From NCBI GenBank assembly GCA_020444165.1, contig JAHLLK010000007.1, positions 62,001 through 126,000 on the forward strand: a stretch of 64,000 bases of DNA, given 5' to 3'. The DNA comes from Deltaproteobacteria bacterium (GTDB lineage: Bacteria; Desulfobacterota; Desulfarculia; Desulfarculales; Desulfarculaceae). Made by a program: the position numbers and the translations under genes. Below, piece after piece: positions 27,567 to 48,575 of the stretch; the stretch's first letter is position 1; each line of letters begins with the position of its first letter. The notes beneath the pieces are model-generated. The model worked only from the letters and a program-made list of their open reading frames with translations, was not told the origin of the DNA and ran no database searches.

Positions 27567-29024
27567 TCACGCCGCCCCGTAGCGATAGCGGAATTCGTCG
27601 GTGAGTATGCAGCGTCTGATCAGCGTGTAATTGCGGGGTCTGGCGTGACCCTCTCCGCCGGTTACGATATGCATGGATTGATAACCCTCGCCATGCACTC
27701 CAATACCCGCCGTGGAAGGGCCGTTCTTCACGAACTCGCAAACATCGGCCTTGCTGGCCATCTTGGCCAGGTTGTCCACGTTCTTGGAGTGCATCACCAG
27801 GGTGTGGCGGAAGCCCTGCTCGGCGGCCACCGCCCGGTCAATGGCCTCGTCGGCATTGCGGCAGCGCACAATGGGCACCACCGACATGATCTGCTCGGTC
27901 CACACCAAGGGGTGCAGGTTGTCGGTTTCCAAAATGGCGATCCGCGCCTCGGGACCGGGGTCCACCCCGATGGCGTTCAAAATGAAGGAGATGGGCTTGC
28001 CGATGTAATCCATGTTGATCACGCTGGCCGTGCCCGGCTCCTTGATCTCCTTGAAAATGTGGGGGAGGAGTTCCTGCCCCTGCTCGGCGGTCAAGAGAAA
28101 CGCGCCGTTTTTCCTCATCTCGGCGATGAGCTGATCGGCCACCGACTCCACCACGAACACCTCCTTCTCGCAGGCGCAGGGGGTGCCGTAGGCAAAGTAG
28201 TTGCCGTCAGTGATGTTTTTCGCGGCCTTGGGGATATCGGCAGTTTCGTCCACCACCACCGGGGTGTTGCCCGGCCCGCCGGCCAGGCACCGCTTGCCGG
28301 TCTTGGTGGCGAAGTTGATCACCCCCTGCCCGCCCATGACCGCGATCATCCTGACCTTGGGATGGGTCATGAGGAACTGGGCCGAGGCCACGGTGGGCTG
28401 GCTCATCATGCACACCAGGTTGGGCGGCCCACCGACCCCCACCACGGCCTGGTTGATGTCCCGGACCGCCATGGCCGAGACCGGGACGGTTTTGGGATGG
28501 GGATTGTGCACCACGGCGTTGCCGCCGGCCAGGATCATGATGGAGTTCATGTAGATGGCCCCGGCCGCGATGGTCACCGGGTTGATGGAGGCCACCACCC
28601 CCACCGGCAGGCGCTCGATGATGGTCACGCCCTTGTCCCCCACGAAGACCTCGGGAGCCAAGTCTTCCAGGCCCGGGGAACTCACGGCGCAGCCCATTTT
28701 GAGGAGGGTCCCCTCGACCGAGCCCAGCTGGGCCCCTTCCAGCTCCAGCTCGGCATAGGTCTGGGAGTTCTGGGCCCCCACCTCGCGGATGGCTTGGATG
28801 GCGGCCCGGCGGATCGCCAAGGGCATGGCCATGAAGGTCTTTTGCGCGGCCGCAGCCGCGGCGATGGCCTCCTCGGTTTCCTCGAAAACCCCGTCGACCA
28901 CTCCGCTGACCACCGCCGCGGGCCCGCTGGCACTTTCCGGCGCGGGGGCCGGTGGGGCGGATGCCTTGAGCTTTTGCAGCACCCCTTTGACTATCTGCTC
29001 TATCTGGGCCTCACTAAGATCCAT
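27567..29024 (-). CDS. CoA-acylating aldehyde dehydrogenase, BMC-targeted
   Basis: 485 residues of the EutE/PduP family, oxidising an aldehyde with NAD+ and CoA to acyl-CoA. Residues 3-19, LSEAQIEQIVKGVLQKL, form an amphipathic encapsulation peptide, followed by an Ala/Pro linker (20-40) and the catalytic domain. The nucleophile is Cys283 in FAYGTPCACEKEV, equivalent to the LPCIAEK motif of EutE/PduP. INPVT and GGQGVINFATKTGK match the NAD/CoA region. It should work inside the shell on the aldehyde made by the amine dehydrogenase encoded in the same locus. Formaldehyde is an unlikely substrate for this family, arguing for a C2 or longer amine. GGAGAGG precedes the ATG. Confidence 0.93.
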   Translation of the reverse strand: MDLSEAQIEQIVKGVLQKLKASAPPAPAPESASGPAAVVSGVVDGVFEETEEAIAAAAAAQKTFMAMPLAIRRAAIQAIREVGAQNSQTYAELELEGAQLGSVEGTLLKMGCAVSSPGLEDLAPEVFVGDKGVTIIERLPVGVVASINPVTIAAGAIYMNSIMILAGGNAVVHNPHPKTVPVSAMAVRDINQAVVGVGGPPNLVCMMSQPTVASAQFLMTHPKVRMIAVMGGQGVINFATKTGKRCLAGGPGNTPVVVDETADIPKAAKNITDGNYFAYGTPCACEKEVFVVESVADQLIAEMRKNGAFLLTAEQGQELLPHIFKEIKEPGTASVINMDYIGKPISFILNAIGVDPGPEARIAILETDNLHPLVWTEQIMSVVPIVRCRNADEAIDRAVAAEQGFRHTLVMHSKNVDNLAKMASKADVCEFVKNGPSTAGIGVHGEGYQSMHIVTGGEGHARPRNYTLIRRCILTDEFRYRYGAA

Positions 29025-29070
29025 GGTGCCTCTCCGAATTAATACATATCTAAAAGGGTTAAAGCCGGGC

Positions 29071-30784: not shown

Positions 30785-32152
30785 TTACTCTTCCATGGCC
30801 TGTTCCAAAGTGATGGGAGTGAAGTAACCGGTCTTCATCTTCAGCTTGATCCAGATCAGGCCGTAGATGATGGAGGCCAGGAGGAAGTAGCCGCCCACCG
30901 TCACGATCTGCAGCTTGACCACCGGATCGGGATAAATGTCATACATCACGTAGGCAAAGCCCAGGATGCCCAGGATCTGCGGAATGGGGTACAGGGGGCT
31001 CACATAGGGCCGGTCCGCCTTGGGGTAGCGGCTGCGGATGATCATCAAGTCGATGTGACCGATGATGTAGCACAGCATCCAGGTCCAGGCCGCGGCCAGG
31101 AGGTACACCAGCACCTGCTCCGTACCGGCCAGACCGGAGATCAGGACCAGGAACATGGCGATGGCGAAGCCGATGATGCCCCACCAGGGGGTGGCGAACT
31201 TGGGGTGCACCCACTTGAAGATGGCCGGCAGCTCACCGGAGTGGGCCATGCCATAGAACAGGCGGGGCACCGCGGCCAACAGGGTGTTCACCGAGCTGGC
31301 CGTGGCGGTGATGCCAATGAGGCCAACCCAGATCGCGCCGGGCTCGCCCAGCATGGCCCGGGCCGCGTCCACGTGCGGCGTGGCCGATTCGGCCAGCTTG
31401 TCCAGGGGGATGAACTTGATCATGGAGAAGCCGAAAACGACCTTGATGATCAGGATGACCACCAAACCCACGAACATGGACCAGGGAATGTTCCTGCCGG
31501 GGTTGATGGTTTCCTCAGCCATGGGGGTTACGAACTCGATGCCAATGAACAGCCAGATGCCCAGGGCCACCAAGGCGAACACCCCCCAGCCCATGGGGTT
31601 GAATTCGGGCGCCGCCGCGATGTTGGGCGCCGTGGTCCCCAGCTCCATCAGGCCGGCGAGGCCCAGGAGAAAGAGGGAGCCCATCATGAACAAGGTAAGT
31701 AATAGCTGGGCCTTGGCGAAGATGTCCACGCCCACCAGGTTGAGGATGGTGAGGAGCACCAACAGCGCGATGCTGAAGGCCATGGGGGGGCACCAACTGG
31801 CCAGGGTGTCGGTGAAGGTCAGACCGGAGACGTAAAGCTCCACCGGTCCGGCCAGCACGTTGACCACCATGTAGCCGCAGAAGGTGGCCACGATGGCCGG
31901 CAGGGGGCCCAGGGCCACCAGGGTGTAGGTGCTGATGCCGCCGGCCCGGGGGAGCATGGTGCCCAGCTCCCCGTAAGTCATCGCGGTCACCATCATCAGC
32001 AGCCAGGCGCAGAACATGGCGATAATGAAACCGCCGCCCGCCAAGCCGAAGCCTTGGCCCAGGGACACCAGGGTGCTTGACGCCACCACCAGGCCCACGG
32101 CTACTGCCAGGCATGACCAAAATCCAAGTACTCTTTTGAGATCTTCCGCCAT
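30785..32152 (-). CDS. APC-superfamily amino acid/amine permease
   Basis: 455 residues with about 12 hydrophobic helices. The N-terminus GFWSCLAVAVGLVVASSTLVSLGQG matches the APC unwound-helix-1 substrate/Na+ region, and IWLFIGIEFVTPMAEETINPGRNIP is the conserved helix 6 region with the E/PGRNIP loop (first 20: IWLFIGIEFVTPMAEETINP). Relatives carry amino acids, ethanolamine or other amines across the inner membrane. In a locus for amine breakdown it is the obvious importer. GGGAGGT lies just upstream of the ATG. An 810-base gap precedes it, so it may have its own promoter. Confidence 0.88.
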   Translation of the reverse strand: MAEDLKRVLGFWSCLAVAVGLVVASSTLVSLGQGFGLAGGGFIIAMFCAWLLMMVTAMTYGELGTMLPRAGGISTYTLVALGPLPAIVATFCGYMVVNVLAGPVELYVSGLTFTDTLASWCPPMAFSIALLVLLTILNLVGVDIFAKAQLLLTLFMMGSLFLLGLAGLMELGTTAPNIAAAPEFNPMGWGVFALVALGIWLFIGIEFVTPMAEETINPGRNIPWSMFVGLVVILIIKVVFGFSMIKFIPLDKLAESATPHVDAARAMLGEPGAIWVGLIGITATASSVNTLLAAVPRLFYGMAHSGELPAIFKWVHPKFATPWWGIIGFAIAMFLVLISGLAGTEQVLVYLLAAAWTWMLCYIIGHIDLMIIRSRYPKADRPYVSPLYPIPQILGILGFAYVMYDIYPDPVVKLQIVTVGGYFLLASIIYGLIWIKLKMKTGYFTPITLEQAMEE

Positions 32153-32962: not shown

Positions 32963-33916
32963 TCACTTCCGTTGTCGGTAGAACTCCACACCCAAGGGTT
33001 CGTCAGTCAGCGTCTGGAGTCCTTTTTGGACGTCGGAATTTTCTTCGCTGTAGAACTCGCGCGCGGCTTTCAAGCCCTTTTCGATGGAGCCCAGACGGTC
33101 CAGGGTGGCCGTCTTGTCCAAGAAGGCGATTTCGTGGATCAGTGCTTCCAGGAAGGTGACCACCGGCGCGAAGGGGTCCACAAAGGACAGACCCACCACG
33201 TCGATTACCGCGTGCAGGTCGGTGCCGGCGATCACCGGGGAGACCAGGGTGTCGCTGATACCAATGGTCTTACAACCGAATTGGCGCGCGAACTTCAGGG
33301 TCTCCAGGATGCGCTGGGAATAGCGGGGAAAGGCGATGGCCACCACCACGATGGAACTGTTGCCCACGGCAATGAGATCATTGGCCTCCCAGGAGCAGGT
33401 GGTGTCGATCAAAACCTTGCCGCGGACCTTTTTGAGCAGATAGCCAAAGAACTGGGCCAGGGAGGCCGCGGCGCGGTAACCCAGCACCACCACCTCCTCG
33501 GCGTCCTTGATGGTGCGGGCCAGGTTATGGAAATCCTGGGCGCTGATGCTGGTCATCAGCTTGCGGCAGCAATCGATGGTGTTCTGGCAGTACCGGAGGA
33601 GGGTGTGCTCTTCCTGGGGCGTAGCGGTCTGGCTGGCCCGGACCATGCGCTCCACGCTGTTCAGCTCGATGTGCAACAAGCCCTTCAAGTACGCCTCGAA
33701 CTCGGCGAAACCCGCGAAGCCCAGATCCATGGCAAAGCGGGTGATGGTGGGTTCGCTCACTCCGCATTCCTGGGCGATCTCTTTGGCGGAGTAGAGGAAT
33801 ATCTTCTTGTAATCGTTGAGAATAAGGTCGGCCACCAGCTTCCGCTTCTTGGGCAGGGTGGGGTAGGCCTGCAAGATGCGGGTGAAAAACTCAGTTCTGG
33901 CGGTCGATTTAGCCAT
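32963..33916 (-). CDS. MurR/RpiR-family regulator with SIS domain
   Basis: 317 residues. The N-terminal HTH_6 domain (about 20-85, KKRKLVADLILNDYKKIFLY, then SAKEIAQECGVSEPTITRFA) is followed by a SIS ligand-binding domain (about 130-270, VVVLGYRAAASLAQFFGYLL and GISDTLVSPVI). RpiR proteins normally sense sugar phosphates, but some control amino acid or BMC loci. It starts 17 bases after a shell-protein stop codon, so it is the last gene of the leftward shell operon and is the best candidate for its regulator. ATG at 33914-33916, with a GTG one codon before as an alternative. Confidence 0.9.
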   Translation of the reverse strand: MAKSTARTEFFTRILQAYPTLPKKRKLVADLILNDYKKIFLYSAKEIAQECGVSEPTITRFAMDLGFAGFAEFEAYLKGLLHIELNSVERMVRASQTATPQEEHTLLRYCQNTIDCCRKLMTSISAQDFHNLARTIKDAEEVVVLGYRAAASLAQFFGYLLKKVRGKVLIDTTCSWEANDLIAVGNSSIVVVAIAFPRYSQRILETLKFARQFGCKTIGISDTLVSPVIAGTDLHAVIDVVGLSFVDPFAPVVTFLEALIHEIAFLDKTATLDRLGSIEKGLKAAREFYSEENSDVQKGLQTLTDEPLGVEFYRQRK

Positions 33917-33933
33917 CACTCATCCCGTGGGGG

Positions 33934-34551
33934 TCAGGCCGACTTTCCGGTTATGGACCCCAGCGCCGCCTCGGCCGCCTCCCGGGCCACCGCCACGTTG
34001 GAGTGGGTGCCCGAGAGGTAGAGGCGTCCGGTGGCGCCGTATACGGTGACGTGCACCAGGGTAACGTCCGCGGCCTTTTCCGCCTCGTTGGCGGCGAAGC
34101 CCGCGTAGCCGGCCGGCTCCATTTCCAGGATGTACAGCGTCTCGTCGGAGAGGCTCATGCTGGAGTTGCGGAACCGGTTGATGATCTGGGTCATATAGGG
34201 ATCAATGCGTTCAATGGTTTCGCTGGCCAGGATCTTGGGGACCGCCCGGTCCTCGATCTTCACGTCCAGGAAATCCAAAATGACCTGGCCGGCCAGCTCC
34301 ACGTCGGCCGGGGAGTCGGCGTGGACCTCCATCATGCCGTAGGTCCGCTCCACCACCAGGGCTCCGGGCCGCACGTTGGCCTGCTTCATCACCGCGTCAC
34401 ACAGGCTGTTGATGGACAGGCCCGGCGCGATTTCCACGAACATGGCCGACTGGCCCGCCACCGGGTAGTAGCCCCGGGCGGTGCTGCCGATAAAGGAGAC
34501 GAACTGCCTTTGCAGGCGGTCGATCAAGGCGAAGGATCTAAGTTCAATCAT
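33934..34551 (-). CDS. BMC-T double-layer trimer shell protein (CcmP/CsoS1D-like), paralogue 1
   Basis: 205 residues made of two fused BMC domains. It aligns along its whole length with the CcmP/CsoS1D type: IELRSFALIDRLQRQFVSFI, FVEIAPGLSINSLCDAVMK, the pore-gate Glu-Arg in VVERTYGMMEVH, and GYAGFAANEAEKAADV. Such trimers stack in two layers and have a large gated pore for bulky metabolites. The second paralogue is at 36944. In this locus they could pass CoA, NAD or the N-alkylglutamate substrate. It lies between the FAD oxidoreductase and the RpiR gene in the operon. Confidence 0.9.
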   Translation of the reverse strand: MIELRSFALIDRLQRQFVSFIGSTARGYYPVAGQSAMFVEIAPGLSINSLCDAVMKQANVRPGALVVERTYGMMEVHADSPADVELAGQVILDFLDVKIEDRAVPKILASETIERIDPYMTQIINRFRNSSMSLSDETLYILEMEPAGYAGFAANEAEKAADVTLVHVTVYGATGRLYLSGTHSNVAVAREAAEAALGSITGKSA

Positions 34552-34602: not shown

Positions 34603-35808
34603 CTAGCCGGCGTTCACCCGCTGGCGCTTGTTGGGGCACACCGCGAACTGCCCCTGACAGGTGGAGTTGCCCGGGCAGGTGCAGGAGTGCTCCTCCACCC
34701 CCCGGAAGCGCGAGAAACAGAAGTCTTTCAAGGGAATCGAAACCTGGCAGTCCATGATCAGCTCGCACATGAGCTTGCCGATGATGGGACCGATCCCGAA
34801 GCCGTGGCCCGAGAAGCCGGTGCAGAACACAAAGCCCGGCACCTCCTCGGTCAGGCCCAACACCGGGATGCCGTCAGACATCTGGGCGATGATGCCGGAC
34901 CAGGTGCGGATGACGTGCACGTCCTTCAAGGCCGGGAAGAACTCCAGCACCCGGCGGCTGATGGAAGGGCAGACCCCGTAGAACAGGGGCTTGCCGCCGC
35001 GGTAGATGAACTCCTCGGTGCCGGTGAAGCCGCCCCAGAAAAAGGGGCCGTGGGGAACCTGCCGGCCGTAGAAGGTGGACTTGGCCGTGCCCACCATCTG
35101 GGGGAACAGCGGGGGATAGGGCTCGGTGATCAGGGCCTCGGAGAAGATGGGCCGCATGGGCAGATCCAGGCCCACCATATTGGCGATGGCCCGCCCGGCC
35201 ACCCCGGCGGCGTTGACCACCAGATCGGTCTCGATGACCCCCTTGTTGGTGACCACCGCGGCCACCCGCCCCTTCTTGAGGCGGATGTCCTTCACCTCCT
35301 CGTGGGTGCGGAACACCGCGCCCAGTTCCTTGGCCTTGCGCATGAAGCCATAGGTGACCAGGAAGGGGTTGGCGTGACCGTCGGTGGGGCAATAGCTGGC
35401 CCCGATCACCACGTCGGACACGTAGGGGTTGATGTCCTTGACCTGCTTGGCGTCCAACATCTCCAGCTCGAGCCCCATGGCCTTCTGATTGGCCACGGCC
35501 TTGCTCATGTTGGCGATGTCGCCCTCGTCCACGCACAGCCGCAGGTTGCCCTTGCGCACGTATTCCACGCTCATGCCCAGCTCTTCGTGCAACTGGCCAT
35601 AGAGCTGGACGCTGGCCATGGCCAGGGGCAGTTCCTGGGGCTTGCGGGCCGATTGCCGCACCCCGCCGCCGTTGCTGCCCGAAGCCTCGCCGCCGATATC
35701 GGATTTCTCGATGACAACCGCCTTGACGCCCTCCCGGCCCAGGTTGTAGGCCAGGGAACACCCCATGACGCCGCCGCCTATAATTACAACTTCCGCCGTG
35801 TCAGCCAT
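34603..35808 (-). CDS. DAO-family FAD amine dehydrogenase subunit (HcnC/OoxB/SoxB-like)
   Basis: 401 residues of the D-amino-acid-oxidase/sarcosine-oxidase-beta fold. N-terminal dinucleotide motif VVIIGGGVMGCSLAYNLG, FAD contacts EASGSNGGGVRQSARKP, central NAAGVAGRAIANM, and C-terminal GFSGHGFGIGPIIGKL. It is the substrate-oxidising subunit in HcnABC, opine oxidase and hydroxyproline dehydrogenase complexes, which oxidise secondary or primary amines. With the 2Fe-2S, FAD/NAD, BFD and 4Fe-4S subunits in the same locus it should oxidise an N-substituted glutamate to glutamate plus aldehyde. Its last 35 residues add four cysteines (376, 378, 384, 391) that are unusual for the family. Confidence 0.88.
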   Translation of the reverse strand: MADTAEVVIIGGGVMGCSLAYNLGREGVKAVVIEKSDIGGEASGSNGGGVRQSARKPQELPLAMASVQLYGQLHEELGMSVEYVRKGNLRLCVDEGDIANMSKAVANQKAMGLELEMLDAKQVKDINPYVSDVVIGASYCPTDGHANPFLVTYGFMRKAKELGAVFRTHEEVKDIRLKKGRVAAVVTNKGVIETDLVVNAAGVAGRAIANMVGLDLPMRPIFSEALITEPYPPLFPQMVGTAKSTFYGRQVPHGPFFWGGFTGTEEFIYRGGKPLFYGVCPSISRRVLEFFPALKDVHVIRTWSGIIAQMSDGIPVLGLTEEVPGFVFCTGFSGHGFGIGPIIGKLMCELIMDCQVSIPLKDFCFSRFRGVEEHSCTCPGNSTCQGQFAVCPNKRQRVNAG

Positions 35809-36523: not shown

Positions 36524-36934
36524 TTACCTCGCGGCCCCGGGGGCCTGTTTCTTGGGAGCTGCCTTCTTCCCCCGCTTCTTGGCCTCGGCCGGGGCGGCCG
36601 GTTCCTGGGCCGGAACTGGCGGGGGCGGGGCGGCCGGTGGCTCGGGAGCGGCCGGCGGTTGGGGGATGATGGCCTCGATATCCTTATGGGGCCGGGGGAT
36701 CACGTGGCTGGAAACCAGCTCGCCCACCCGCTGGGCCGCCGCCTGGCCGGCGTCCACCGCCGCCTTGACCGCGCCCACATCCCCGGCCACGCCGATCAGC
36801 ACCAGGCCGGCGCCCACGAACTCGCGGTTCAAGAGCCGCACATTGGCCGCTTTCACCATGGCGTCGGCCGCCTCTATGGCTCCCACCAAACCTCTTGTCT
36901 CGATCAGGCCCAGGGCTTGTTGCATGCTCGCCAT
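36524..36934 (-). CDS. BMC-H shell protein with C-terminal Pro/Ala/Lys tail
   Basis: 136 residues. Residues 5-92 are a PduA/PduJ/CcmK-type BMC hexamer domain ([20 protein letters not shown] ... [14 protein letters not shown] ... [14 protein letters not shown]). The pore loop is E-F-V-G-A-G (38-43), lacking the usual Lys-Ile/Val-Gly-Ser/Gly sequence. A 45-residue low-complexity tail ends in a basic [12 protein letters not shown] patch that could contact cargo or neighbouring facets. It lies 3 bases upstream of the BFD gene's start, inside the shell operon. Confidence 0.93.
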
Positions 36935-38422: not shown

Positions 38423-38424
38423 GC

Positions 38425-39812: not shown

Positions 39813-41144
39813 TTAGCTCGTGGAAATGGCCACGGCGCCGTCCACCGCGGTCACGGTGCCCGCGATGCTGGCATGCACCCGGGCGCCCAGGGCGCCCGCC
39901 GGGATCTCGCCGATCACCTGGCCCAGGCTCACCCGGTCGCCCTTGGCGACGGTGGCCTGGGCCGGGGCGCCCAAATGCTGTTTCAGGGGAATCCGCACCG
40001 CACCCACCGGCCGAGTGAACTCCACAAAGGGCGGATGCACGTCGTAACGCTTCACCCCCAGCCGCTCCATGAGCCGGCTGGTGGGGATCTTGCGGTAGTC
40101 GCGGAACCCGGAGGGGTGGTACTCCTGCCGGGGCTGGCCCCGTTTGATCCCCGCGGCCATGAGCTGTTTCTTCACGCCGGCGTTGATCTCCCGGGGCGCC
40201 AGGCCCATGGGGCAGGCGAACTTCTCGCAGATGCCGCATTCGCTGCAGATCAGGGCGTCCACTTGGTTCGCCAGCTGGGGACCGCCCTGGGCGGCCAGCT
40301 GGCGCATGATCTTGTGGGGATAGAGACCGTGCCCCAAAAGGTTCCGGGGGCAGAGGTCGCTACAGCGCGAGCACTGGCAGCAGGCGATGCGGGCCAGCCG
40401 GCTCACCTTCGCCAGGTCCTTTTCCTTGTCGGCCACCACGTTGTGCCCCGCGGGCAGGAGGATCACCCCGCTGGTGGTCTTGGTGACCGGCAGGGTGGTG
40501 TCCCCGGCCACCGCCCCCATCATGGGCCCGCCCACCACCACCCGGTAATCGCTCACCGTGGGGCCGCCGGCGTGGTCGATCACTTCCTGCAGGCTCACCC
40601 CCAGGGGCACCCGGGTGACCATGGGCCGGGCCACCTCGCCGCACACGGTCAGGTAGCGGTGGGTGACCGGTTTGCCTTCCACGGCCGCGGCGAGGTTCAA
40701 CAGGGATTCCACGTTGGACACCACCGCGCCCACCATCAGGGGGATGCCGCCCTCGGGCACCACCCGGCCGGTGACTTCGTACACCAACACCTGCTCATCG
40801 CCGGCCGGGTAGAAGTCCTCCAGCTCGAAAAGCGCCAGCCCGTCCTTGATCCGGGCCAGGGCTTCCCGCACCGACTCCATGGCGTGGCCGTGTTTGCCCT
40901 TGAGGCAAACCAGGCCCTGGCCCGCGCCGGTGGCCGCCATGGCCAGCTGAAGCCCGGCCAGGATTTCCGTGGGCCGGGCCTCCATGAGGTAGGGATCGCT
41001 CATCAAAAGGGGCTCACAGGAAGCCCCGTTGGCCAGCACCCGTTCCACCGTGGCGTTCAGCTTCACGTGGGTGGGAAAACCGGCCCCGCCGGCGCCCACC
41101 ACACCCGCCTCCTGGACTTTGCTTATGATCTGGGCTTTGTCCAT
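39813..41144 (-). CDS. pduS: PduS-like RnfC-type Fe-S flavoprotein
   Basis: 443 residues. The N-terminal Complex1-51K/RnfC-like nucleotide and flavin domain shows VVGAGGAGFPTHVKL and YPAGDEQVLVYEVTGR, followed by an SLBB-like region (PLGVSLQEVIDHAGG). Two ferredoxin clusters come next (CCQCSRCSDLCPRN and CSECGICEKFACPMG), then a C-terminal barrel-sandwich domain ending in VDGAVAISTS. PduS of the propanediol compartment reduces cobalamin and shuttles electrons. No B12 enzyme is encoded here, so a role in reoxidising NADH or carrying electrons from the amine dehydrogenase to the PduT-like pore is more likely. Confidence 0.93.
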   Translation of the reverse strand: MDKAQIISKVQEAGVVGAGGAGFPTHVKLNATVERVLANGASCEPLLMSDPYLMEARPTEILAGLQLAMAATGAGQGLVCLKGKHGHAMESVREALARIKDGLALFELEDFYPAGDEQVLVYEVTGRVVPEGGIPLMVGAVVSNVESLLNLAAAVEGKPVTHRYLTVCGEVARPMVTRVPLGVSLQEVIDHAGGPTVSDYRVVVGGPMMGAVAGDTTLPVTKTTSGVILLPAGHNVVADKEKDLAKVSRLARIACCQCSRCSDLCPRNLLGHGLYPHKIMRQLAAQGGPQLANQVDALICSECGICEKFACPMGLAPREINAGVKKQLMAAGIKRGQPRQEYHPSGFRDYRKIPTSRLMERLGVKRYDVHPPFVEFTRPVGAVRIPLKQHLGAPAQATVAKGDRVSLGQVIGEIPAGALGARVHASIAGTVTAVDGAVAISTS

Positions 41145-41185: not shown

Positions 41186-41467
41186 CTACTTGACCTCGCC
41201 GAACATCTCGAAGCTGTCGACGATGCCCACCACCACCGCGTCCACCGGCACGGGCGCTTCCCGCTTCAGGGCCTGCATGGCCGGGGCGCCCTGGGTCACG
41301 ATGACCAACTCGTCGTCGCCGGCCCCTATCTCGTCGGCCGCCAGGAGCACATGGCCCACCGGCTGCAGCTTCCGGTCCAGGGGCTGCACGAACAACAGGC
41401 GGAGCGCATGCAGGCTGTCCAGTTTCTTGGTGGACCACACATTGCCTATGACTTTGGCTATCAGCAT
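41186..41467 (-). CDS. eutN: EutN/CcmL-type pentameric BMC vertex protein
   Basis: 93 residues starting MLIAKVIGNVWSTKKLDSLH and continuing LLFVQPLDRKLQPVG, GAGDDELVIVTQGAPAM and VPVDAVVVGIVDSFEMFG, the full BMC-P (EutN_CcmL) signature. Pentamers cap the vertices of the polyhedral shell, and one such gene is enough to close it. The ATG at 41465-41467 is preferred over the TTG four codons upstream. It is 41 bases from the PduS-like gene. Confidence 0.95.
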   Translation of the reverse strand: MLIAKVIGNVWSTKKLDSLHALRLLFVQPLDRKLQPVGHVLLAADEIGAGDDELVIVTQGAPAMQALKREAPVPVDAVVVGIVDSFEMFGEVK

Positions 41468-41484
41468 CCTGCCTCGCAAATCGG

Positions 41485-41787
41485 CTACAAGTGCTCGGCC
41501 TTTTCCACCGCGTCCAAAGCCGCTTTCACCGCGGCGATATCGCCGAAGATCCCGATCATGGTGGTGTGCTGGGGGCAGGTCCCCTTGAGGTCGTACACCT
41601 GCACCGCCGCCGCCTTTTCGGCCACATCGGAAGCGGCGATCATGTCCAACAGGCGCCCCTGCACCAGCCCCACCGCGCTGAAGTCCATGACTTCCAGCGA
41701 TTTTTTGGCCGATCCTCCCATCCGGGACATGAGCATATCGATCACTCCGGGCCCCGGATGGCTTATGAATTGGGTGCTAACGGCCAC
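41485..41787 (-). CDS. Permuted BMC-H shell protein with GTCPQ pore motif (GrpU-like)
   Basis: 100 residues. FISHPGPGVIDMLMSRMG followed by SAVGLVQGRLLDMIAASDVA matches the circularly permuted PduU/EutS layout, with the BMC core ending in IFGDIAAVKAALDAVEKAEH. The loop after the central strand reads LKGTCPQHTT with Cys71; Gly-x-Cys-Pro-Gln is the motif I associate with GrpU, a shell protein shown to bind an Fe-S cluster in its hexamer pore. This is therefore probably the locus's second redox-active shell tile. Confidence 0.85.
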   Translation of the reverse strand: MAVSTQFISHPGPGVIDMLMSRMGGSAKKSLEVMDFSAVGLVQGRLLDMIAASDVAEKAAAVQVYDLKGTCPQHTTMIGIFGDIAAVKAALDAVEKAEHL

Positions 41788-41868: not shown

Positions 41869-42147
41869 CTATTCAGGTTTGGGGATGATGAACTCGATGT
41901 CCGAATGCGGTCTGGGGATCACGTGGACCGAGATCAACTCGCCCACCTTCTGGGCCGCCGCGCCGCCGGCATCCGTGGCCGCCTTCACCGCGCCCACGTC
42001 GCCGCGCACGAAGATCGCCACCAGGCCGCCACCGACCTTCACCTGACCCACCATCTTCACGTTGGCCGCTTTGACCATGGCGTCGGCCGCCTCGATGGCG
42101 CCCACCAGCCCCCGGGTTTCCACCATTCCCAATGCCTGCTCAGCCAT
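41869..42147 (-). CDS. BMC-H shell protein (PduA/CcmK-like)
   Basis: 92 residues, a canonical single BMC domain: [78 protein letters not shown]. The pore loop is Lys-Val-Gly-Gly-Gly (37-41), the common facet-hexamer type. Very short compared with the tailed paralogue at 36524 and likely the most abundant facet tile. A ribosome binding site AGGAGGAAAC precedes the ATG. Confidence 0.96.
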
Positions 42148-42191: not shown

Positions 42192-42695
42192 TTATCTCTT
42201 CAAACGAAAAGATCGAGCCCGCATGGTCCACGCCTTGGGTATGCTCAGGGTGACCATGGCGGTTTGGTTCATGCGCTTGCTTTTTTGCACCCGCTTGACC
42301 TCGGCCTCGCCCAGCTCCGCGCCGCTGCGGTCCAGGGCCGTGACCTTCTCCCCCTCCGCGGGCAGGGGCAGAAACTCATAGGGCATGGCGATGGTGGCCT
42401 CGTCACCGGGCAGGGACTCGTCCACCACGAAAATGGCCTGCCCCGGGCAGATGGGTACGCAGGTGTAACAACCTATGCACTTGTCCTCGTCCAGGCGGGG
42501 CAGCGCGGTGATGTCCGCGCCCACCGAGATAGCCTCGGTCCGGCAACTGGCCTCGCAGGGGTTGCAAGGGATGGGCTGGATGCACTCGATCACCGCCACC
42601 GGCCCCTTGGCCCGCCGCGCGGCCGAGGGAATGCCCGGTCCGCCCGCCAGCTCGTTGTCGGCTATGATTCCTTCTCTGGCCAGTCCTTTGCTCAT
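42192..42695 (-). CDS. Ferredoxin-like 4Fe-4S subunit of the amine dehydrogenase
   Basis: 167 residues. Cysteines in ECIQPIPCNPCEASCRTEAI and DKCIGCYTCVPICPGQAIFV form two [4Fe-4S] sites. The C-terminal 70 residues form a beta-rich tail (VTALDRSGAELGEAEVKRVQ). Its ATG overlaps the stop of the FAD/NAD subunit (ATGA), a strong sign that they are partners. Proteins of this type accompany HcnAB/opine-oxidase-like modules in anaerobes and probably replace oxygen or quinone as electron outlet. Confidence 0.85.
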   Translation of the reverse strand: MSKGLAREGIIADNELAGGPGIPSAARRAKGPVAVIECIQPIPCNPCEASCRTEAISVGADITALPRLDEDKCIGCYTCVPICPGQAIFVVDESLPGDEATIAMPYEFLPLPAEGEKVTALDRSGAELGEAEVKRVQKSKRMNQTAMVTLSIPKAWTMRARSFRLKR

Positions 42696-43789
42696 CGCCT
42701 CGCCTCTTCCACGCTACGGGCCAACAGCTCCTTGGCGTCGGCCCGCGCCTGTCCAAAGGGGCCGTGCCGGAGACCCCGCATGCTTGCGAGCTGCTCCTGG
42801 TGCAGGCCCGCGAACTTGTCGTCGTCCAGGTAGCCCAGGGCATGGGCCACAGCCAGGCCGGCCACCCGGCCCTGGATGATGGCCGAGCTGGCCTCCTCGA
42901 TGCCCGAGACGTCGCCGGCCACGTAAAAGCCCGGGACCGTGGTCTCCTGGTTCAGGTCGTGGGCCGGCACGTGGCCGCCCAGGGCGGGCACGAACACCGT
43001 CTGGCAATGGGCCATGCGGCAGAGCTGGGTCATGGGGTTCAGCCCCACGGCCAGGCAGATGGTGTCCACCTCCAGGCGCTGCTCCGTGCCGGGCATGGCC
43101 TGCCACTTGTCGTCCACCTGGGCGATGGTGGCCCCTTCCACCTTGTCCTTGCCGTGGGCCAGGACAATGGTGTGGGACATGAGGAAGGGCACACCCTGGC
43201 GGGCCACCTTGGCCGCGTGCACGCCATAGCCGCCGATGGCCGGCGCGGCGTCGATCACCGCCACCACCTGGCAGCCGGCCTGGATCATCTGGTAGCTCAC
43301 CACCAGGCCCACGTTGCCGGCCCCCACCATGAGCAGGCGGTTGCCCGGCCGCACCCCGTGGAGGTTGGCCATGGTCTGGGCCGCCCCGGCCCCGATGACC
43401 CCGGGCAGGGTCCAGCCCGGGAAGGGGACCATGTTCTCCGAGGCGCCGGTGGCGATGAGCAGCTTCTGGCCGAACACCGGGACGATGTCGTCGTCCAGCC
43501 GCACCGCCAGGTTGCCGCCTTCGTAAATGCCCAAGACCGTGGCGTTCAGCACCACTTCCACGCCCAGCTCCCGGGCTTCGTCCAGCATGCTCTGGCCGAT
43601 CTCGAAGCCGCGCTCGCCGGCCCGGTGCTCCCGGGAGCCGAAGAACTTGTGGATCTGTTTGAAGAGCTGCCCGCCGGGCCGCTCGTTTTCGTCAAAGACC
43701 ACCACCTGCGCCCCGGCGCGGGCGGCCTCGATGGCCCCGGCCAGGCCGGCCGGCCCGGCCCCTATAACCACCAATTCGTATCGCCGCAT
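42692..43789 (-). CDS. FAD/NAD(P)-binding subunit (HcnB/OoxA-like), lacking BFD domain
   Basis: 365 residues of the pyridine-nucleotide-disulfide-oxidoreductase fold. FAD motif LVVIGAGPAGLAGAIEAARA with VVVFDENERPGGQLF, NAD motif LLMVGAGNVGLVVSYQMIQA, and FAD closing motif TTVPGFYVAGDVSGIEEASS. HcnB, OoxA and sarcosine-oxidase-alpha relatives continue for about 100 residues with a BFD [2Fe-2S] domain; here the protein ends soon after AHALGYLDDDKF. The missing domain appears as the separate targeted protein at 35870. It lies 2 bases after the 2Fe-2S subunit gene. Confidence 0.9.
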   Translation of the reverse strand: MRRYELVVIGAGPAGLAGAIEAARAGAQVVVFDENERPGGQLFKQIHKFFGSREHRAGERGFEIGQSMLDEARELGVEVVLNATVLGIYEGGNLAVRLDDDIVPVFGQKLLIATGASENMVPFPGWTLPGVIGAGAAQTMANLHGVRPGNRLLMVGAGNVGLVVSYQMIQAGCQVVAVIDAAPAIGGYGVHAAKVARQGVPFLMSHTIVLAHGKDKVEGATIAQVDDKWQAMPGTEQRLEVDTICLAVGLNPMTQLCRMAHCQTVFVPALGGHVPAHDLNQETTVPGFYVAGDVSGIEEASSAIIQGRVAGLAVAHALGYLDDDKFAGLHQEQLASMRGLRHGPFGQARADAKELLARSVEEARR

Positions 43790-43791
43790 GG

Positions 43792-44109
43792 CTAGGCTCG
43801 CTTCGGTTCGGGACCAAGTCCCTGCTGGGTTTCCACGGCCATTCCCGCCCGCAGGGGAGTGACGCAGGTGCGCACATTGGGCCGCCCGTCCACCACCATG
43901 ATGCAGTCGGTGCAGCGGCCGATGGCGCAGAACACGCCCCGCGGGTCGCCGCGTTTGGCCGTGATACGATGGACCAAGACCCCGGCCGCCCGGAGGGCCA
44001 CCGCAATGGGTTCGCCCTCCCGGCCGGTCAGGCTGCGGCCGTCAAAGGTGAACTGCACCTCCGGGCCTTTGGGTATCTGCCCCAGGATGGGGTGATCGTC
44101 AATCCGCAT
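43792..44109 (-). CDS. Small [2Fe-2S] subunit (HcnA/OoxC-like)
   Basis: 105 residues with a plant-type [2Fe-2S] site: Cys in GVFCAIGRCTDCIMVVDGRP and the fourth in NVRTCVTPL (C-x4-C-x2-C-x12-C). VQFTFDGRSLTGREGEPIAV is the usual start of the SoxA/HcnA ferredoxin domain. Together with the next gene it reconstitutes the N-terminal part of sarcosine oxidase alpha or HcnAB. It lies 12 bases from the MgsC-like gene. Confidence 0.9.
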   Translation of the reverse strand: MRIDDHPILGQIPKGPEVQFTFDGRSLTGREGEPIAVALRAAGVLVHRITAKRGDPRGVFCAIGRCTDCIMVVDGRPNVRTCVTPLRAGMAVETQQGLGPEPKRA

Positions 44110-44121
44110 TAGAACCCCCTG

Positions 44122-45447
44122 CTAACAGAATCCGAACCGCTCTCCGAAGGTGAAGTTGGAACCGATCAGAGGTACTCCGGTGATGGCGCAGGCCTCCATG
44201 GTCAGGGAGCGCAGATCCTCGCGTTCCAGGTTGGCCAGTTTGGTCTTGCCCGCCGCCTTGGCCAACAAGCTGGCCTCGATGGTCATGGCCTTGATGTAGT
44301 TGCCCACCCGTTGGGCGGCCAGTTCGATATCCAGCTTGGCCCGCTGGGCCGGGTCCTGGGTGCCGATGCCAAAGGCGCATTTGCCCTCGTGGCAGCGGAG
44401 GCACACCGCGCAGCCCATGGCCACCATGGCTCCAGTGCCGATAGCCACCGCGTCGGCGCCCAGGGCCAGGGCCTTGGCCACGTCCGCGCCGTCCTTGATG
44501 CCGCCGCTGACGATGAGGCTCACCTCCTGCTTCACCCCCATCTCCTCCAGGCCGCGCACCGCCAAGACGATGGCCGCCAGGGTGGGGATGCCCAGGTGGG
44601 TGGTGGCCATGACCGGCGAGGCCCCGGTGCCGCCCTCGGCCCCGTCGATCACCACGCCGTCCACCCCGGCCTTGGCCGCGATCTTGATGTCCTCGCGGAC
44701 CCGGCCGGCGGCCATCTTAAGAAAGATGGGAATCTCGTAGTTGGTCAGGTCGCGGAGCTCCTGAATCTTCAAGACCAGGTCGTCGGCCCCGAAGATGTCG
44801 CCGTGGCGGGGATGGCTGTGCAGGTCCATGCCCGGCGGAAGCTGGCGGAACTTGCCGATCTCCTCGGTGATCTTGGAGCCCATGAGGTGGCCGGCCAGGC
44901 CGGGCTTGGCCCCGATGCCCACGATGATCTCCAGGGCGTCGGCCGCTTCGATATTGCGGAGCGAGAAGCCGATGCGGCTGGGGGTGATCTGCACCACCTG
45001 CTTGTAGGAGTTGCCGCGTTCCTCGGGCAGGAGCCCGCCCTCGCCGTTGTTGATGGAGGTGCCCACGTACTGGGTGGCCTTGGCCAGGGCGGTCTTGGCT
45101 TCCTTGCTGAGCGCGCCGTAGCTCATGCCCGAGATGAGGATCGGCGTCTCCACCACCAGGGGCTTCTTGGCGTAGCGGGCGCCCAACACCGTCTGGGACT
45201 TGCAGTCCTCCCGGTAGGTGTCGATGGGCATGCGGGTGAGCTGCCCGGGCAAGATGGTCAAGTCGTCCAGGGTGGGGAAGTAGCGGGTGGAGCCGCAACC
45301 CCGGATGCGGTGTTTGCCGGTCTGGGCCTTGATCCGAATCTCGGCGATGGTGTCCGCGTTCCAGACCCCATGCTGCACGTCCCGGGGACGCGGCGTCTTG
45401 GTCTCCTCCGGCTTGGTCTGGCCTTCCGGCTGGGGGTTGGTGGACAT
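44122..45447 (-). CDS. mgsC: FMN-binding glutamate-synthase-domain protein (MgsC-like)
   Basis: 441 residues of the central FMN TIM-barrel domain of glutamate synthase. Motifs: KPLVVETPILISGMSYGALS, INNGEGGLLPEE, VDGVVIDGAEGGTGASPVMA, LIVSGGIKDGADVAKALALG and a Cys cluster CLRCHEGKCAFG for a [3Fe-4S]-type centre. In N-methylglutamate synthase (MgsABC) and GlxBCD the three glutamate-synthase domains are separate genes, as here. ATG at 45445-45447 overlaps the upstream stop by one base. In this setting I infer an N-alkylglutamate-forming role; an archaeal-type split glutamate synthase is the alternative. Confidence 0.82.
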   Translation of the reverse strand: MSTNPQPEGQTKPEETKTPRPRDVQHGVWNADTIAEIRIKAQTGKHRIRGCGSTRYFPTLDDLTILPGQLTRMPIDTYREDCKSQTVLGARYAKKPLVVETPILISGMSYGALSKEAKTALAKATQYVGTSINNGEGGLLPEERGNSYKQVVQITPSRIGFSLRNIEAADALEIIVGIGAKPGLAGHLMGSKITEEIGKFRQLPPGMDLHSHPRHGDIFGADDLVLKIQELRDLTNYEIPIFLKMAAGRVREDIKIAAKAGVDGVVIDGAEGGTGASPVMATTHLGIPTLAAIVLAVRGLEEMGVKQEVSLIVSGGIKDGADVAKALALGADAVAIGTGAMVAMGCAVCLRCHEGKCAFGIGTQDPAQRAKLDIELAAQRVGNYIKAMTIEASLLAKAAGKTKLANLEREDLRSLTMEACAITGVPLIGSNFTFGERFGFC

Positions 45448-46145
45448 TAGGCCCTCCCGGTCAAGTGGCTGGGTTTGAACATCACGTAATCGTGACGGCC
45501 GTAGACCTTGGGCACGATGCTCTGCAGCCCGCCCACGTCCTGGGCGATGCCGTACTTCTCGAACAGCCGCGCCACCTCGTCGTGTTCCTCGCTGGTGATG
45601 GGCTTCAGGGTCACGTTGCCGCCCAGGTGGGAATCCACCTCGGGATCGGCCACGTGGATCACCCCGTTGTACATGGACTCGCCGATCTCGGGGCCCACTT
45701 TGCCCAGGAAGATCATGCGGCCGCCCAGGGTCATCTGGCCCGAGCGCATGCCCACGTCGCCGCACACGATGAGGTTGCCGCCTTTCATGCCAAAGGCCGC
45801 CCGGCTGCCGGTGTTGCCCCGCACCAACACGGTGCCGCCCACCTGGGAGGGGGCCAGGTTCATGCCGGTGTTGCGCTCCACGATGATCTCGCCGGCGCCC
45901 ATGTTGTCGCCGGTGTACAGGCCGGTGTTGCCCTCGATGACCATGCTGGGGCCTTGCAGGAAGCCGCCGGTGTAAAAGCCGGTGCTGCCCCGCACCACGA
46001 TGCTGCCGTTGCCCTTGATGCCCGTGGCGAAGTTGTGAATGGAGCCCGGATGGAGAATCTCCACCTCCTGGCCCTCGGCCATCAGCTCCTTGAGCCGGGC
46101 GTTGACCTGGCGGACATTCATGCCGCTGATGTCTAGACTGACCAT
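45447..46145 (-). CDS. mgsB: Glutamate-synthase GXGXG-domain protein (MgsB-like)
   Basis: 232 residues forming a right-handed beta-helix of GXGXG repeats, e.g. FATGIKGNGSIVVRGSTGFY, GDNMGAGEIIVERNTGMNLA, GTVLVRGNTGSRAAFGMKGG and MRSGQMTLGGRMIFLG. It corresponds to the C-terminal domain of GltB and to MgsB/GlxC. The ATG overlaps the MgsA-like gene by 13 bases. Such subunits hold the intersubunit tunnel architecture rather than catalytic residues. Confidence 0.88.
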   Translation of the reverse strand: MVSLDISGMNVRQVNARLKELMAEGQEVEILHPGSIHNFATGIKGNGSIVVRGSTGFYTGGFLQGPSMVIEGNTGLYTGDNMGAGEIIVERNTGMNLAPSQVGGTVLVRGNTGSRAAFGMKGGNLIVCGDVGMRSGQMTLGGRMIFLGKVGPEIGESMYNGVIHVADPEVDSHLGGNVTLKPITSEEHDEVARLFEKYGIAQDVGGLQSIVPKVYGRHDYVMFKPSHLTGRA

Positions 46146-47032
46146 ACCTTCACTCCTCCCGGCTCCATCTCCGTGGCGTAGATGTCGTCGAAGATGGGGG
46201 TCAAGGCGATCTGTTCCGAGCCCAGGAGCACCGTGCCGTCGTCGGCTTCGTAGAAGAGCACCGGTTTGATGCCCAGGCGGTCCCGGAAGGCGCCCATCTG
46301 ATCCGTGGTGGTCGCGATGATGGTGAAGATGCCGTCCATGTCGTCCAGGGCCTTGGTCATGGCCTCTTCCATGGACAGGCCGTTATGGGTCATTTCCCAG
46401 GCCAGGTAATGGGCGGCCATTTCCGAGTCATTGTTGGTCTTGAAACGGATGCCCCGGGTTTCCATGAGGCGGCGCATGTTGAAGTAGTTGGTGAACTGAC
46501 CGTTGTGCACCAGGGCCAAATCGGGCAGCAGGTAGCTGGTGAAGGGGTGCGCGAAGTCGATGTTCTCCACGCTCTCGGTGGCCATGCGCACGTGGCCGAT
46601 GCCGTGGGTGCAGGGTCCGGCCTTGATATGGTGGCGCCGGGCCAGGTCCTCGGCCGAGCCCTCGTCCTTGTAGATGGTCAGGCGGGGGCCCAGGGAATGG
46701 ATGCAGAGGTTGGGATCTGAGTCCACCGCCCAGTTGAGCTCGGCCAGCCGGGCGGGGTCCATGTCCAGCTTGGCTTCGTAGAAGGTGAAAATGCCTTCCC
46801 CGGTGTAGGTGACGGGGTCCACGATCTTGGCGTATCCCGAGATGATCTTCTCCAGATGATCCTCGGAGGCCAAGTTCCGGAGCGAGACCCGGATGGCGAG
46901 GCTATCGCGCAGCTCGTAAAAAGCCACGCCCGTGGCGTCGCGCCCCCGGTGCTCCAGATGCTTGAGCATTTCCACCAGATCCACGGCCAGGGTCTGTGAG
47001 CCCGGGGCAATGATTCCGGCTATACCGCACAT
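46133..47032 (-). CDS. mgsA: Class II glutamine amidotransferase (MgsA-like)
   Basis: 299 residues, starting MCGIAGIIAPG so that Cys2 becomes the N-terminal nucleophile. GHVRMATESVENIDFAHPFT, LALVHNGQFTNYFNMRR and NNDSEMAAHYLAWEM are the classic Ntn-amidotransferase substrate motifs. The length fits MgsA/GlxB. In the known N-methylglutamate pathway this subunit acts on gamma-glutamylmethylamide-like or glutamine-like substrates, releasing the amine into the synthase. It is the second gene of the metabolic part of the locus. Confidence 0.88.
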   Translation of the reverse strand: MCGIAGIIAPGSQTLAVDLVEMLKHLEHRGRDATGVAFYELRDSLAIRVSLRNLASEDHLEKIISGYAKIVDPVTYTGEGIFTFYEAKLDMDPARLAELNWAVDSDPNLCIHSLGPRLTIYKDEGSAEDLARRHHIKAGPCTHGIGHVRMATESVENIDFAHPFTSYLLPDLALVHNGQFTNYFNMRRLMETRGIRFKTNNDSEMAAHYLAWEMTHNGLSMEEAMTKALDDMDGIFTIIATTTDQMGAFRDRLGIKPVLFYEADDGTVLLGSEQIALTPIFDDIYATEMEPGGVKVWSV

Positions 47033-47237
47033 GGCGTCCTCTCTTCCGGCCGCTCCCGCGGGGAGCAGTCGTTATCTCGGTCCTTGGGAGACCTCCGAAA
47101 AAGGTCGTCCTGGCTTTCCTGGGCGCTGCCGGCCCCAAACCCGGTTTGGGGCGGCATCCCCCTTGGCTTGCCTTGGCCAGGTCCGGCCCCCCGGCGGGAC
47201 CTGACGGTCCCGCCCGGCGGGGTGCCTGCCCTCCCGC

Positions 47238-48575
47238 CTAGAGGTGGCGGGAGTATTCGTTCCACTCCCAGTCGGTGACGTAGGTCCGGAACCGTTCCAA
47301 CTCGCCCTCCTTCAGGGCCAGGAAACACTGCACCAGATCCGTACCCATGGCCTCGCACAGCCAGGCGTCCTTTTTCAGCGCGGCCAAGGCGTCGGGCATG
47401 TACTGCGGCACCGTGGGCGTGGTCTCCGGGTCCAGACGGTAGGCGTCACCCAGGAAGGGGTCGCCGGGGTCCATTTTGTTCCTGATGCCGTCCAAGCCGG
47501 CCAGGAGCCCCGCCGCGATCACCAGATAGGGGTTGGCCGAAGCGCCGGGCCCCCGGTTCTCGCAACGGGTGGCCCGCCCCCGCTCTCCGGGCACCCGGAG
47601 GTACACCGTGCGGTTGTCCAGGCCCCACACCAGGAAGTAGGGAGCGAAGCTGTCCAGACAGACCCGGCGATAGGAGTTGATGGTGGACAACATGAAGGGG
47701 GTCATGGACTTGGCGTGGGCCATCTGCCCGGCGATGAAATTCAGGGCCAGTTCGCTGAGCCCGTGCTTGCCCTGGGGATCGTCAAAGAGGTTCCTGGTGC
47801 CCTCCGGGTCGTTCACCGAGAAATGCACGTGGTAGCCGCTGCCGCCGCCCTCGTTCTTGGGCCGGTCCATGAAGGTCAGGTGCAGGCCCTGCTGAGCGGC
47901 GTAGTCCTTGCACACGGTCTTGTAGGTGAAGGACTGGTCGGCCATGGCCAGGGCGTCGTCGTACTTCCAGTTGATCTCGTACTGACCGCTGAAGAACTCG
48001 TGGTTCATGTAGAGCACGTCAAGGCCCATGGCCATGAGAATGTTCTGCAAGTTCCTGAGGATGCCCATCTCATCCACCCGCGGGCCGGTGGTGTAGACGC
48101 TGTCGGGCTGGTTGGCGTAGTAGGGTCCGGACTGGCCGTTCTCCAGGCGGAAAAGGAAAAACTCCAGCTCCGTGGCGGCCATGGGGCGGAGATTCAGGTC
48201 CTTGTACAGGTTCACCACTCTTTTCAGCAGGTTGCGGGGGCAAACCTGGGAAGGCTTGCCGTCGAACATGGGATCGGCCAGCAACCGGGCGGTGCCAGGC
48301 AGGTACGGAATGGGAGTGTAGGTGTCCAGGTCGGGAATCACGGCCATGTCGCGCCAGTCGATCTCATCGGCCACGCCGGTACCGGGAGGGATATTGTTAG
48401 AAAGATCGATGGCATATACGGCCTTGGCAAAGTTGATGCCGTGCTCCGCCACACTGGCCAGCTTCGCGGCCGGCATGGCCTTGGAACGGCAGACGCCGTA
48501 CACATCCGGATACTCGATACGCAGGGTATCGATTTTATCCGCGACTATTCTCTCCTGAACCTCCTGCAAATCCAT
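47238..48575 (-). CDS. gmaS: GmaS-like gamma-glutamylamide synthetase (glutamine-synthetase family)
   Basis: 445 residues of the glutamine synthetase fold. MAATELEFFLFRLENGQSGP holds the metal-binding Glu motif, GSGYHVHFSVNDPEGTRNLF the ammonium/His region, and VYLRVPGERGRATRCENRGP and SANPYLVIAAGLLAG the ATP/glutamate region. Position before mgsABC-like genes parallels gmaS in methylotroph N-methylglutamate clusters, where it makes gamma-glutamylmethylamide from methylamine, glutamate and ATP. The ATG at 48575 is chosen because GGGGAGG lies 9 bases upstream; the ATG 12 codons earlier has no site. An ordinary or ethanolamine-specific glutamine-synthetase homologue is the alternative. Confidence 0.82.
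   Translation of the reverse strand: MDLQEVQERIVADKIDTLRIEYPDVYGVCRSKAMPAAKLASVAEHGINFAKAVYAIDLSNNIPPGTGVADEIDWRDMAVIPDLDTYTPIPYLPGTARLLADPMFDGKPSQVCPRNLLKRVVNLYKDLNLRPMAATELEFFLFRLENGQSGPYYANQPDSVYTTGPRVDEMGILRNLQNILMAMGLDVLYMNHEFFSGQYEINWKYDDALAMADQSFTYKTVCKDYAAQQGLHLTFMDRPKNEGGGSGYHVHFSVNDPEGTRNLFDDPQGKHGLSELALNFIAGQMAHAKSMTPFMLSTINSYRRVCLDSFAPYFLVWGLDNRTVYLRVPGERGRATRCENRGPGASANPYLVIAAGLLAGLDGIRNKMDPGDPFLGDAYRLDPETTPTVPQYMPDALAALKKDAWLCEAMGTDLVQCFLALKEGELERFRTYVTDWEWNEYSRHL

Follow-up and report, generated by a model that had tools for sequence, protein, structure and literature searches.

A candidate glutamate-linked amine oxidation pathway in a predicted bacterial microcompartment of a deltaproteobacterium

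The best-known catabolic bacterial microcompartments (BMC) obtain their aldehydes from B12 lyases, glycyl radical enzymes or aldolases. In the N-methylglutamate (NMG) pathway (GmaS, MgsABC, MgdABCD), glutamate carries the amine, and a ligase is combined with three split synthase subunits and a multi-subunit flavin dehydrogenase. In the HcnABC/OdhABC/L-proline dehydrogenase family, a DAO-type catalytic subunit is accompanied by a Pyr_redox subunit and by Fer2 and BFD [2Fe-2S] parts. We analysed a stretch of 64,000 nucleotides from a Desulfarculaceae genome (contig JAHLLK010000007.1, positions 62,001 to 126,000; below, the window). Its minus-strand locus 27,567-48,611 resembles all these systems, as it contains BMC shell genes, a CoA-acylating aldehyde dehydrogenase (AldDH) of the EutE/PduP type, a ligase similar to glutamine synthetase (GS), three NMG-synthase-like subunits and a split HcnABC-type dehydrogenase. 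The BMC-H/T/P shell, EutJ, PduS/PduT, GrpU and the EutE-type AldDH with an encapsulation-type N-terminus are shared with the EUT, PDU and GRM metabolosomes. Unlike in these systems, no B12-dependent lyase, glycyl radical enzyme or aldolase was found among 30 window proteins scanned with NCBIfam and Pfam, and the source of aldehyde would instead be an amine dehydrogenase. PduL-type phosphotransacylases were found neither among these 30 proteins nor in any of nine locus-bearing genomes. No alcohol dehydrogenase was observed among the 30 proteins; the genomes were not searched for it.

An earlier note on this DNA had proposed a compartment for glutamate-linked amine oxidation. All gene classes it listed are present on one strand, and the scan agrees with its report that the three usual aldehyde sources are absent. 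The genes within the boundaries it gave were confirmed, but the RidA and glutamate dehydrogenase genes fall outside them. The subunits of its HcnABC-type dehydrogenase are present as well, but HcnB is split into two genes, the HcnB-like and BFD-type genes of Table 1.

Sequence comparison suggests, with a probability of roughly 0.7, a metabolosome in which an amine is joined to glutamate in the cytosol, and the aldehyde is released inside the shell by the HcnABC-type dehydrogenase and trapped by the CoA-acylating AldDH. Firstly, the ligase would convert amine, glutamate and ATP to a gamma-glutamyl-amide. Secondly, the amidotransferase subunit of the MgsABC-like synthase would free the amine, and the FMN/3Fe-4S subunit would reductively join it to 2-oxoglutarate, yielding N-alkylglutamate and glutamate. 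The N-alkylglutamate would then enter the shell, where a complex of HcnA, HcnB, ferredoxin, BFD protein and HcnC would produce glutamate and free aldehyde, with RidA hydrolysing the imine. AldDH would convert the aldehyde to acyl-CoA. Finally, electrons would exit via PduS-PduT and the GrpU-like pore, glutamate dehydrogenase would regenerate 2-oxoglutarate, and acyl-CoA would pass to central metabolism or to an ADP-forming ligase. Somewhat more likely than not, this would be a new metabolosome class with glutamate as a reusable handle and two kinds of Fe-S pores, anaerobic, B12-free and radical-free, in which a shell was added to an older cytosolic pathway.

If so, metabolosomes would have a new source of aldehyde, an amine dehydrogenase supplied through a glutamate carrier, and bacteria a new way of containing a toxic intermediate. 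A function would be assigned to a locus type that has no recognised signature enzyme, and a route would be suggested by which anaerobes in sediments draw carbon and energy from amines. In the 2021 BMC catalogue, no signature enzyme is obvious for the types ACI, FRAG1-7, HO, MIC2-7 and MUF2-3; judged by its main text, MIC2-7 and MUF2-3 resemble our locus in combining this lack with an aldehyde dehydrogenase (PMC8217296). That main text does not contain glutam-, amine, sarcosine, pfam00120, pfam01266, pfam01645, Desulfo- or GrpU, and the available part of the 2014 BMC taxonomy (PMC4207490) does not contain glutam-, amine or sarcosine. Among the papers listed in literature searches, judged by titles and the openings of abstracts, none links a microcompartment with this amine pathway.

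The locus is not confined to one genome. An alignment of HcnC proteins (A1, 25 rows) was used to scan GTDB genome contigs and gave 13 loci (L001-L013), from records titled as Desulfo-named taxa, Deltaproteobacteria or 'proteobacterium Delta 1'. Shell genes lie beside HcnC in all 13 loci, and all 13 genomes contain BMC domains. MgsC was present in 11 of the 13 genomes (G003 was not searched, and none was found in G011). Recurrence of MgsC/GS-like, HcnABC-like and BMC genes together in related genomes was one of the checks that the earlier note had suggested, and the genome scans bear it out. In loci of sufficient length the usual order is MgsC, HcnA, HcnB, ferredoxin, BMC-H, GrpU-like protein, BMC-P, PduS, PduT, EutJ, flavoprotein, BMC-T, (BMC-H), BFD, HcnC, BMC-T, RpiR, AldDH; RidA follows in seven related loci. 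The EutJ match is missing in L001, the third BMC-H is missing in several loci, and L003, L011 and others end at contig ends. In G004 the order is shuffled with the content kept; here and in G009, HcnC, BMC-T and RpiR are separate from the main set. In G001, the genes for GS, MgsA, MgsC and two AldDH are on a different contig. Two further genomes fit: in G060, HcnC, BFD and BMC-T share a contig with MgsC, and G584 has the genes from GS through PduT in the same order until the contig end. In the window and in all nine loci that hold both parts (L001, L002, L005-L008, L010, L012, L013), shell genes stand between HcnA/HcnB and HcnC.

Such loci are rare. In a phylum sample of 395 genomes, 3 have HcnC of the window's clade, the centre genome among them. 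So do 8 of the 389 genomes in the order of G002, where a relative in G752 makes a ninth. The corresponding counts for MgsC are 2 of 395 (again including the centre genome), 9 of 389, and 2 of 86 in the family of G752. The two clades coincide in 8 of the 389 genomes (Fisher p 6.7e-15, relatedness not controlled), and in both mismatches, G584 and G011, contig ends truncate the locus.

Several other observations were made during the scans. A class III aminotransferase gene follows the BFD gene of the shell locus in G009 (L021:1869-3179), HcnC being elsewhere in that genome. G655 and G540 do contain BMC domains, but their HcnC-like matches are only distant ones (269 and 230 bits). The HcnC-like matches in L098 (G703) and L101 (G706) each contain one in-frame TAA, which was seen in none of the other matches listed.

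The ligase differs from ammonia-assimilating GS at the flap residue Glu327. Glu is present in 11 of 11 GSI-type rows (GlnA of E. coli and B. velezensis and nine homologues from BMC-bearing genomes), whereas all 14 rows of the ligase clade have Phe. The latter are the window, seven BMC genomes and six related database entries of unseen context, including a near-duplicate of the G004 row. PuuA has Tyr at this position, and all seven GlnT/GmaS-type rows, taken from NMG-type clusters on plasmids, have Trp. The same replacement by Phe is described for the gamma-glutamylethanolamide synthetase GlnA4, but, unlike for the window ligase, the passages of PMC6529630 consulted mention neither an NMG-synthase partner nor a shell. 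The ligase is not GmaS proper. The base Asp177 of GmaS is replaced by Asn (a position located by the residue spacing in the accessible part of PMC7948447, with RhGmaS itself outside the alignment), and the Trp300 position by Phe. The ligase clade is separate from GmaS/GlnT in the tree, and the score is 309.6 bits against the TIGR03105 cut-off of 469.6, being also below the cut-off of every other NCBIfam model matched. Hence of the GmaS-like synthetase in the earlier note, there remains a related GS-like ligase without the Glu327 of ammonia-using GS. The Asp50 column was not used, as the printed rows have Asp and GmaS has Ala by structure in the same part of PMC7948447.

The synthase consists of three split subunits with the amidotransferase Cys1 retained. 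In the tree, the MgsC-like clade (support 100/100, 11 rows) joins seven NMG-synthase rows, along with one row of G013, at 100/99. It is apart from GltB and housekeeping rows, and it appears as sister to, not inside, the NMG-synthase clade; long branches were flagged elsewhere in this tree. The cysteine motif of the 3Fe-4S cluster is kept in 10 of 10 window-type MgsC rows and lost in the four aligned NMG-synthase rows. NMG synthase is described in part of PMC5023235 as reacting glutamate with methylamine. The retained cysteines suggest instead reductive amination with an outside electron donor, and the synthase step is probably reductive. The MgsABC-like assignment of the earlier note is thus supported by the grouping with NMG synthase, and these cysteines set the window synthase apart from the NMG synthases aligned. 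Another GS/MgsA/MgsB/MgsC-like set, 29-40% identical to the window proteins, was observed in G013 (contig C189, L125, 5327-16547), which also has a BMC locus; it possibly represents another glutamate-loading pathway.

The ligase and synthase could also be a GS/GOGAT pair recapturing ammonia, with the HcnABC-type enzyme oxidising another amino acid or a secondary amine directly to the aldehyde in the shell. The two families are indeed GS-like and GOGAT-like, the 3Fe-4S cysteines are retained as in ordinary GOGAT, and HcnABC-type relatives oxidise varied amino acids, being opine, proline and hydroxyproline dehydrogenases and HCN synthase (PMC4575208, consulted in part). However, Glu327 is lost throughout the clade and the synthase clusters with NMG synthase. 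Moreover, other GS homologues were found in seven of eight BMC genomes searched (a second GS was not found in G010), distant second glutamate-synthase homologues were found in all eight, and the shell-less copy in G752 described below retains ligase, synthase and dehydrogenase as a unit. We consider this scheme unlikely. Ordinary ammonia assimilation was rejected, given the loss of Glu327 and the separate GS and glutamate-synthase homologues. The earlier note had named placement of the two enzymes in ordinary ammonia assimilation as an argument against its reading; they were placed otherwise, the synthase with NMG synthase and the ligase in a clade of its own that lacks Glu327.

In the dehydrogenase, all parts of the HcnABC family (DAO, Pyr_redox, Fer2 and BFD) are present. 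The window differs from the family in having a separate BFD gene with BMC-type modules, an extra ferredoxin, and a four-Cys C-terminal tail on HcnC. All 14 rows of the BMC clade have this tail, which neither the shell-less copy nor the aligned relatives at greater distance possess; it may form an extra Fe-S or metal site. The nearest solved structure to HcnC is 1y56_B, deposited as sarcosine oxidase, which we take to be the beta subunit of Pyrococcus L-proline dehydrogenase. The folate-binding domain GCV_T was not found in the window dehydrogenase subunits by the NCBIfam/Pfam scan, whereas it is present in both NMG-pathway SoxA-like subunits scanned (L089, L032), and an NMG dehydrogenase of the MgdABCD type was therefore rejected. 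RidA proteins hydrolyse imines, which fits an aldehyde-release step. NMG dehydrogenase is predicted to make methylene-tetrahydrofolate (PMC5023235, seen in part). With the folate domain missing, the aldehyde should be released free, which would be a reason for the shell. This favours a free aldehyde of C2 or larger, in line with the preference of the earlier note for ethylamine or a longer amine over methylamine.

A known NMG pathway for methylamine, enclosed in a compartment that would contain formaldehyde, is very improbable. The three-part logic is alike and the synthase clades are sisters. However, the ligase is outside the GmaS clade, the dehydrogenase is not of the folate-domain type, and AldDH belongs to the EutE/PduP family, whose substrates in known systems are C2-C3 aldehydes. 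Our locus further differs from the known pathway in lacking the GmaS-specific residues, in the 3Fe-4S cysteines of the synthase and in its shell genes, of which the annotated NMG clusters fetched (L032, L089) have none.

The shell proteins were compared in 13 rows, the window and 12 loci. All rows contain the PduT pore motif C-P/S/A-G-K/R/S-Y/F and the GrpU pore motif G-X-C-P-Q-N/H, both as defined in the part of PMC6325248 consulted (the latter in its section 13), as well as both CxxCxxC motifs of PduS. Electrons are predicted to be exported through the PduT and GrpU-like Fe-S pores. AldDH is 41% identical to E. coli EutE, with the Cys aligned. A hidden Markov model (HMM) of the AldDH encapsulation sequence matched none of 1205 shuffled sequences, proved too narrow and was followed by a profile comparison of ranked sequence windows. 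A regular expression for the AldDH N-terminus missed three of 14 rows, including that of the window, and these were added to the profile comparison by hand; the BFD profiles exclude a G005 row (27219-27806), which is a Nitro_FeMo-Co protein. The helix of the BFD subunit ranked first of 4509 sequence windows (19 other families) against the AldDH profile, with z 5.9. AldDH and the BFD subunit thus carry encapsulation-type sequences and are predicted shell cargo. The flavoprotein-like protein gave an AF2 model with pLDDT 81.5, whose best PDB matches are UbiX-type flavoproteins at query TM about 0.4-0.5; one of 13 rows of this protein, having no C-terminal match, was left out of the EutQ-module comparison.

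A shell-less version of the pathway was found on an 8.4-kb contig of G752, with the same order GS-MgsA-MgsB-MgsC-HcnA-HcnB::Fd-BFD-HcnC-RidA and no shell genes. A search for BMC domains found none in this genome, whose completeness is not stated. Here a single 528-aa open reading frame (ORF) spans HcnB and ferredoxin (L117), an indication that the ferredoxin is part of the dehydrogenase. In this ligase, too, Phe takes the place of Glu327. The BFD protein starts near the BFD domain, the N-terminal module and helix being missing, and HcnC has no four-Cys tail. Compared with G752, the shelled version thus adds the EutT-like module and the encapsulation-type helix on the BFD [2Fe-2S] subunit, and the tail on HcnC, which gives a before/after view of what encapsulation adds to a pathway. 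That the locus combines two unrelated functions, a cytosolic amine pathway and, independent of it, a metabolosome of uncharacterised type, would agree with occurrence of the enzymes without a shell, but it is the least credible scheme, as shell genes separate HcnA/HcnB from HcnC in the window and nine loci, an encapsulation-type sequence is located on a dehydrogenase subunit, and none of the usual aldehyde-producing enzymes is among the 30 window proteins scanned.

Five further genomes (L118-L122) have more distant HcnC-like proteins (345-358 bits) and no BMC domains. In all five stretches the HcnABC-type genes are near genes for window-related proteins, an APC permease (43-48%) and a MetA-type protein (about 40%); no GS or MgsABC-like genes were found in these stretches. 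L119, examined in detail, also contains OCD/mu-crystallin and RidA genes. Thus relatives of the APC permease sit beside other HcnABC-type genes.

The substrate may vary. Across loci the ligase is 54-58% identical to that of the window versus 76-80% for the synthase, and the transporters differ, an APC permease in the window and TRAP transporters in four relatives; different species may therefore use different amines. Ethylamine and propylamine are the natural first candidates, and amino alcohols or primary-amine amino acids are further possibilities. In G004, a partial DctM match is on the opposite strand. PDB matches of the TRAP binding protein (best 100 bits) were dropped as a guide to the substrate.

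A number of observations weigh against the proposed metabolosome. The TRAP transporters beside four loci hint at anionic substrates. To our knowledge, characterised HcnABC-type relatives generally do not release aldehydes, and the fold model of HcnC (mean pLDDT 50.7) was too poor for inspection of the active site and was not used. Of the 13 locus fragments, 8 contain AldDH; in G004 and G001 it is encoded elsewhere. No GS of the BMC clade was found in G009, whose fetched locus contains masked bases. At E<0.1, the AldDH-derived HMM alone recognised the BFD helix in 1 of 15 rows and none of the 13 flavoprotein rows, and the flavoprotein N-terminus (z 4.3) is barely above internal stretches of the flavoprotein and EutJ (z 4.0 and 3.9). 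The shell-less cassette is known from one genome of unstated completeness. Finally, glutamate dehydrogenase, APC permease and acyl-CoA ligase of the window were not found in L001-L013, and the steps assigned to them may be local.

Table 1. Genes of the candidate locus and its surroundings (window coordinates)
Feature	Coordinates	Strand	Basis or remark
GS-like, predicted gamma-glutamyl-amide ligase	47238..48611	-	445-457 aa by start choice; Gln-synt_C 1.1e-98
MgsA-like class II glutamine-amidotransferase subunit	46133..47032	-	GATase_6/7; MCGIAG N-terminus with catalytic Cys
MgsB-like GXGXG subunit	45447..46145	-	GXGXG 1.4e-15
MgsC-like glutamate-synthase-type subunit, 3Fe-4S Cys motif	44122..45447	-	Glu_synthase 3.4e-101; ATG at 45447
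HcnA-like [2Fe-2S] subunit	43792..44109	-	Fer2_4 3.8e-30
HcnB-like FAD/NAD-type subunit, without BFD part	42692..43789	-	Pyr_redox_2 1.4e-31; SoxA family
Ferredoxin-like 4Fe-4S subunit	42192..42695	-	Fer4
BMC-H shell protein, EutM-like (70% identity)	41869..42147	-	BMC 3.6e-27
GrpU-like BMC-H, GxCPQH pore motif (predicted Fe-S)	41485..41787	-	PDB matches 4olo/4olp
BMC-P vertex protein	41186..41479	-	EutN_CcmL 5.2e-27
PduS/RnfC-like flavoprotein, two CxxCxxC	39813..41144	-	Complex1_51K, SLBB, Fer4_17, RnfC_N
PduT-type BMC-T, pore Cys (CPGRY)	39249..39800	-	NCBIfam/Pfam scan and motif
EutJ-like protein	38425..39261	-	NF011660 314.7 bits, above cut-off
Predicted FMN-flavoprotein-fold protein, encapsulation-like N-terminus, EutQ-like C-terminal module	37619..38452	-	AF2 and PDB matches
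BMC-T, CcmP-like	36944..37564	-	NF053796 239.7 bits, below its 340 cut-off
BMC-H shell protein with C-terminal tail	36524..36934	-	BMC 1.4e-28
BFD-type [2Fe-2S]/SO_alpha_A3 subunit, EutT-like N-terminal module, encapsulation-type helix	35870..36520	-	Fer2_BFD
HcnC-like FAD (DAO) subunit, four-Cys C-terminal tail	34603..35808	-	DAO 1.7e-71
Second CcmP-like BMC-T	33934..34551	-	NF053796 225.5 bits, below cut-off
RpiR-type regulator	32963..33919	-	HTH_6 and SIS
APC-type amine/amino-acid permease	30785..32152	-	AA_permease_2 5.8e-37
CoA-acylating AldDH (EutE/PduP family), encapsulation-type N-terminus	27567..29024	-	NF011927 481.4 bits, above cut-off
Glutamate dehydrogenase, possible 2-oxoglutarate regeneration	25013..26263	-	NCBIfam/Pfam
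RidA-type protein	22263..22676	-	67% to RidA of related locus
ADP-forming acyl-CoA ligase-like, divergent, upstream; possible acyl-CoA outlet	49414..51483	+	NCBIfam matches below curated cut-offs

A search for tRNA genes in the window found none, and no Rfam family scored at or above its gathering threshold there. A 192-aa ORF at 32198-32776 has no family match, looks non-coding and was dropped as a gene. WD40-repeat and DUF3156 genes lie between the permease and AldDH genes (29071-30695); no match to them was seen in L001-L013. An 832-aa ORF with a PPDK_N ATP-binding domain (22680-25178) is located between the RidA and glutamate dehydrogenase genes. The best-scoring organism-named relative of the glutamate dehydrogenase is from a Desulfarculaceae metagenome-assembled genome (74%).

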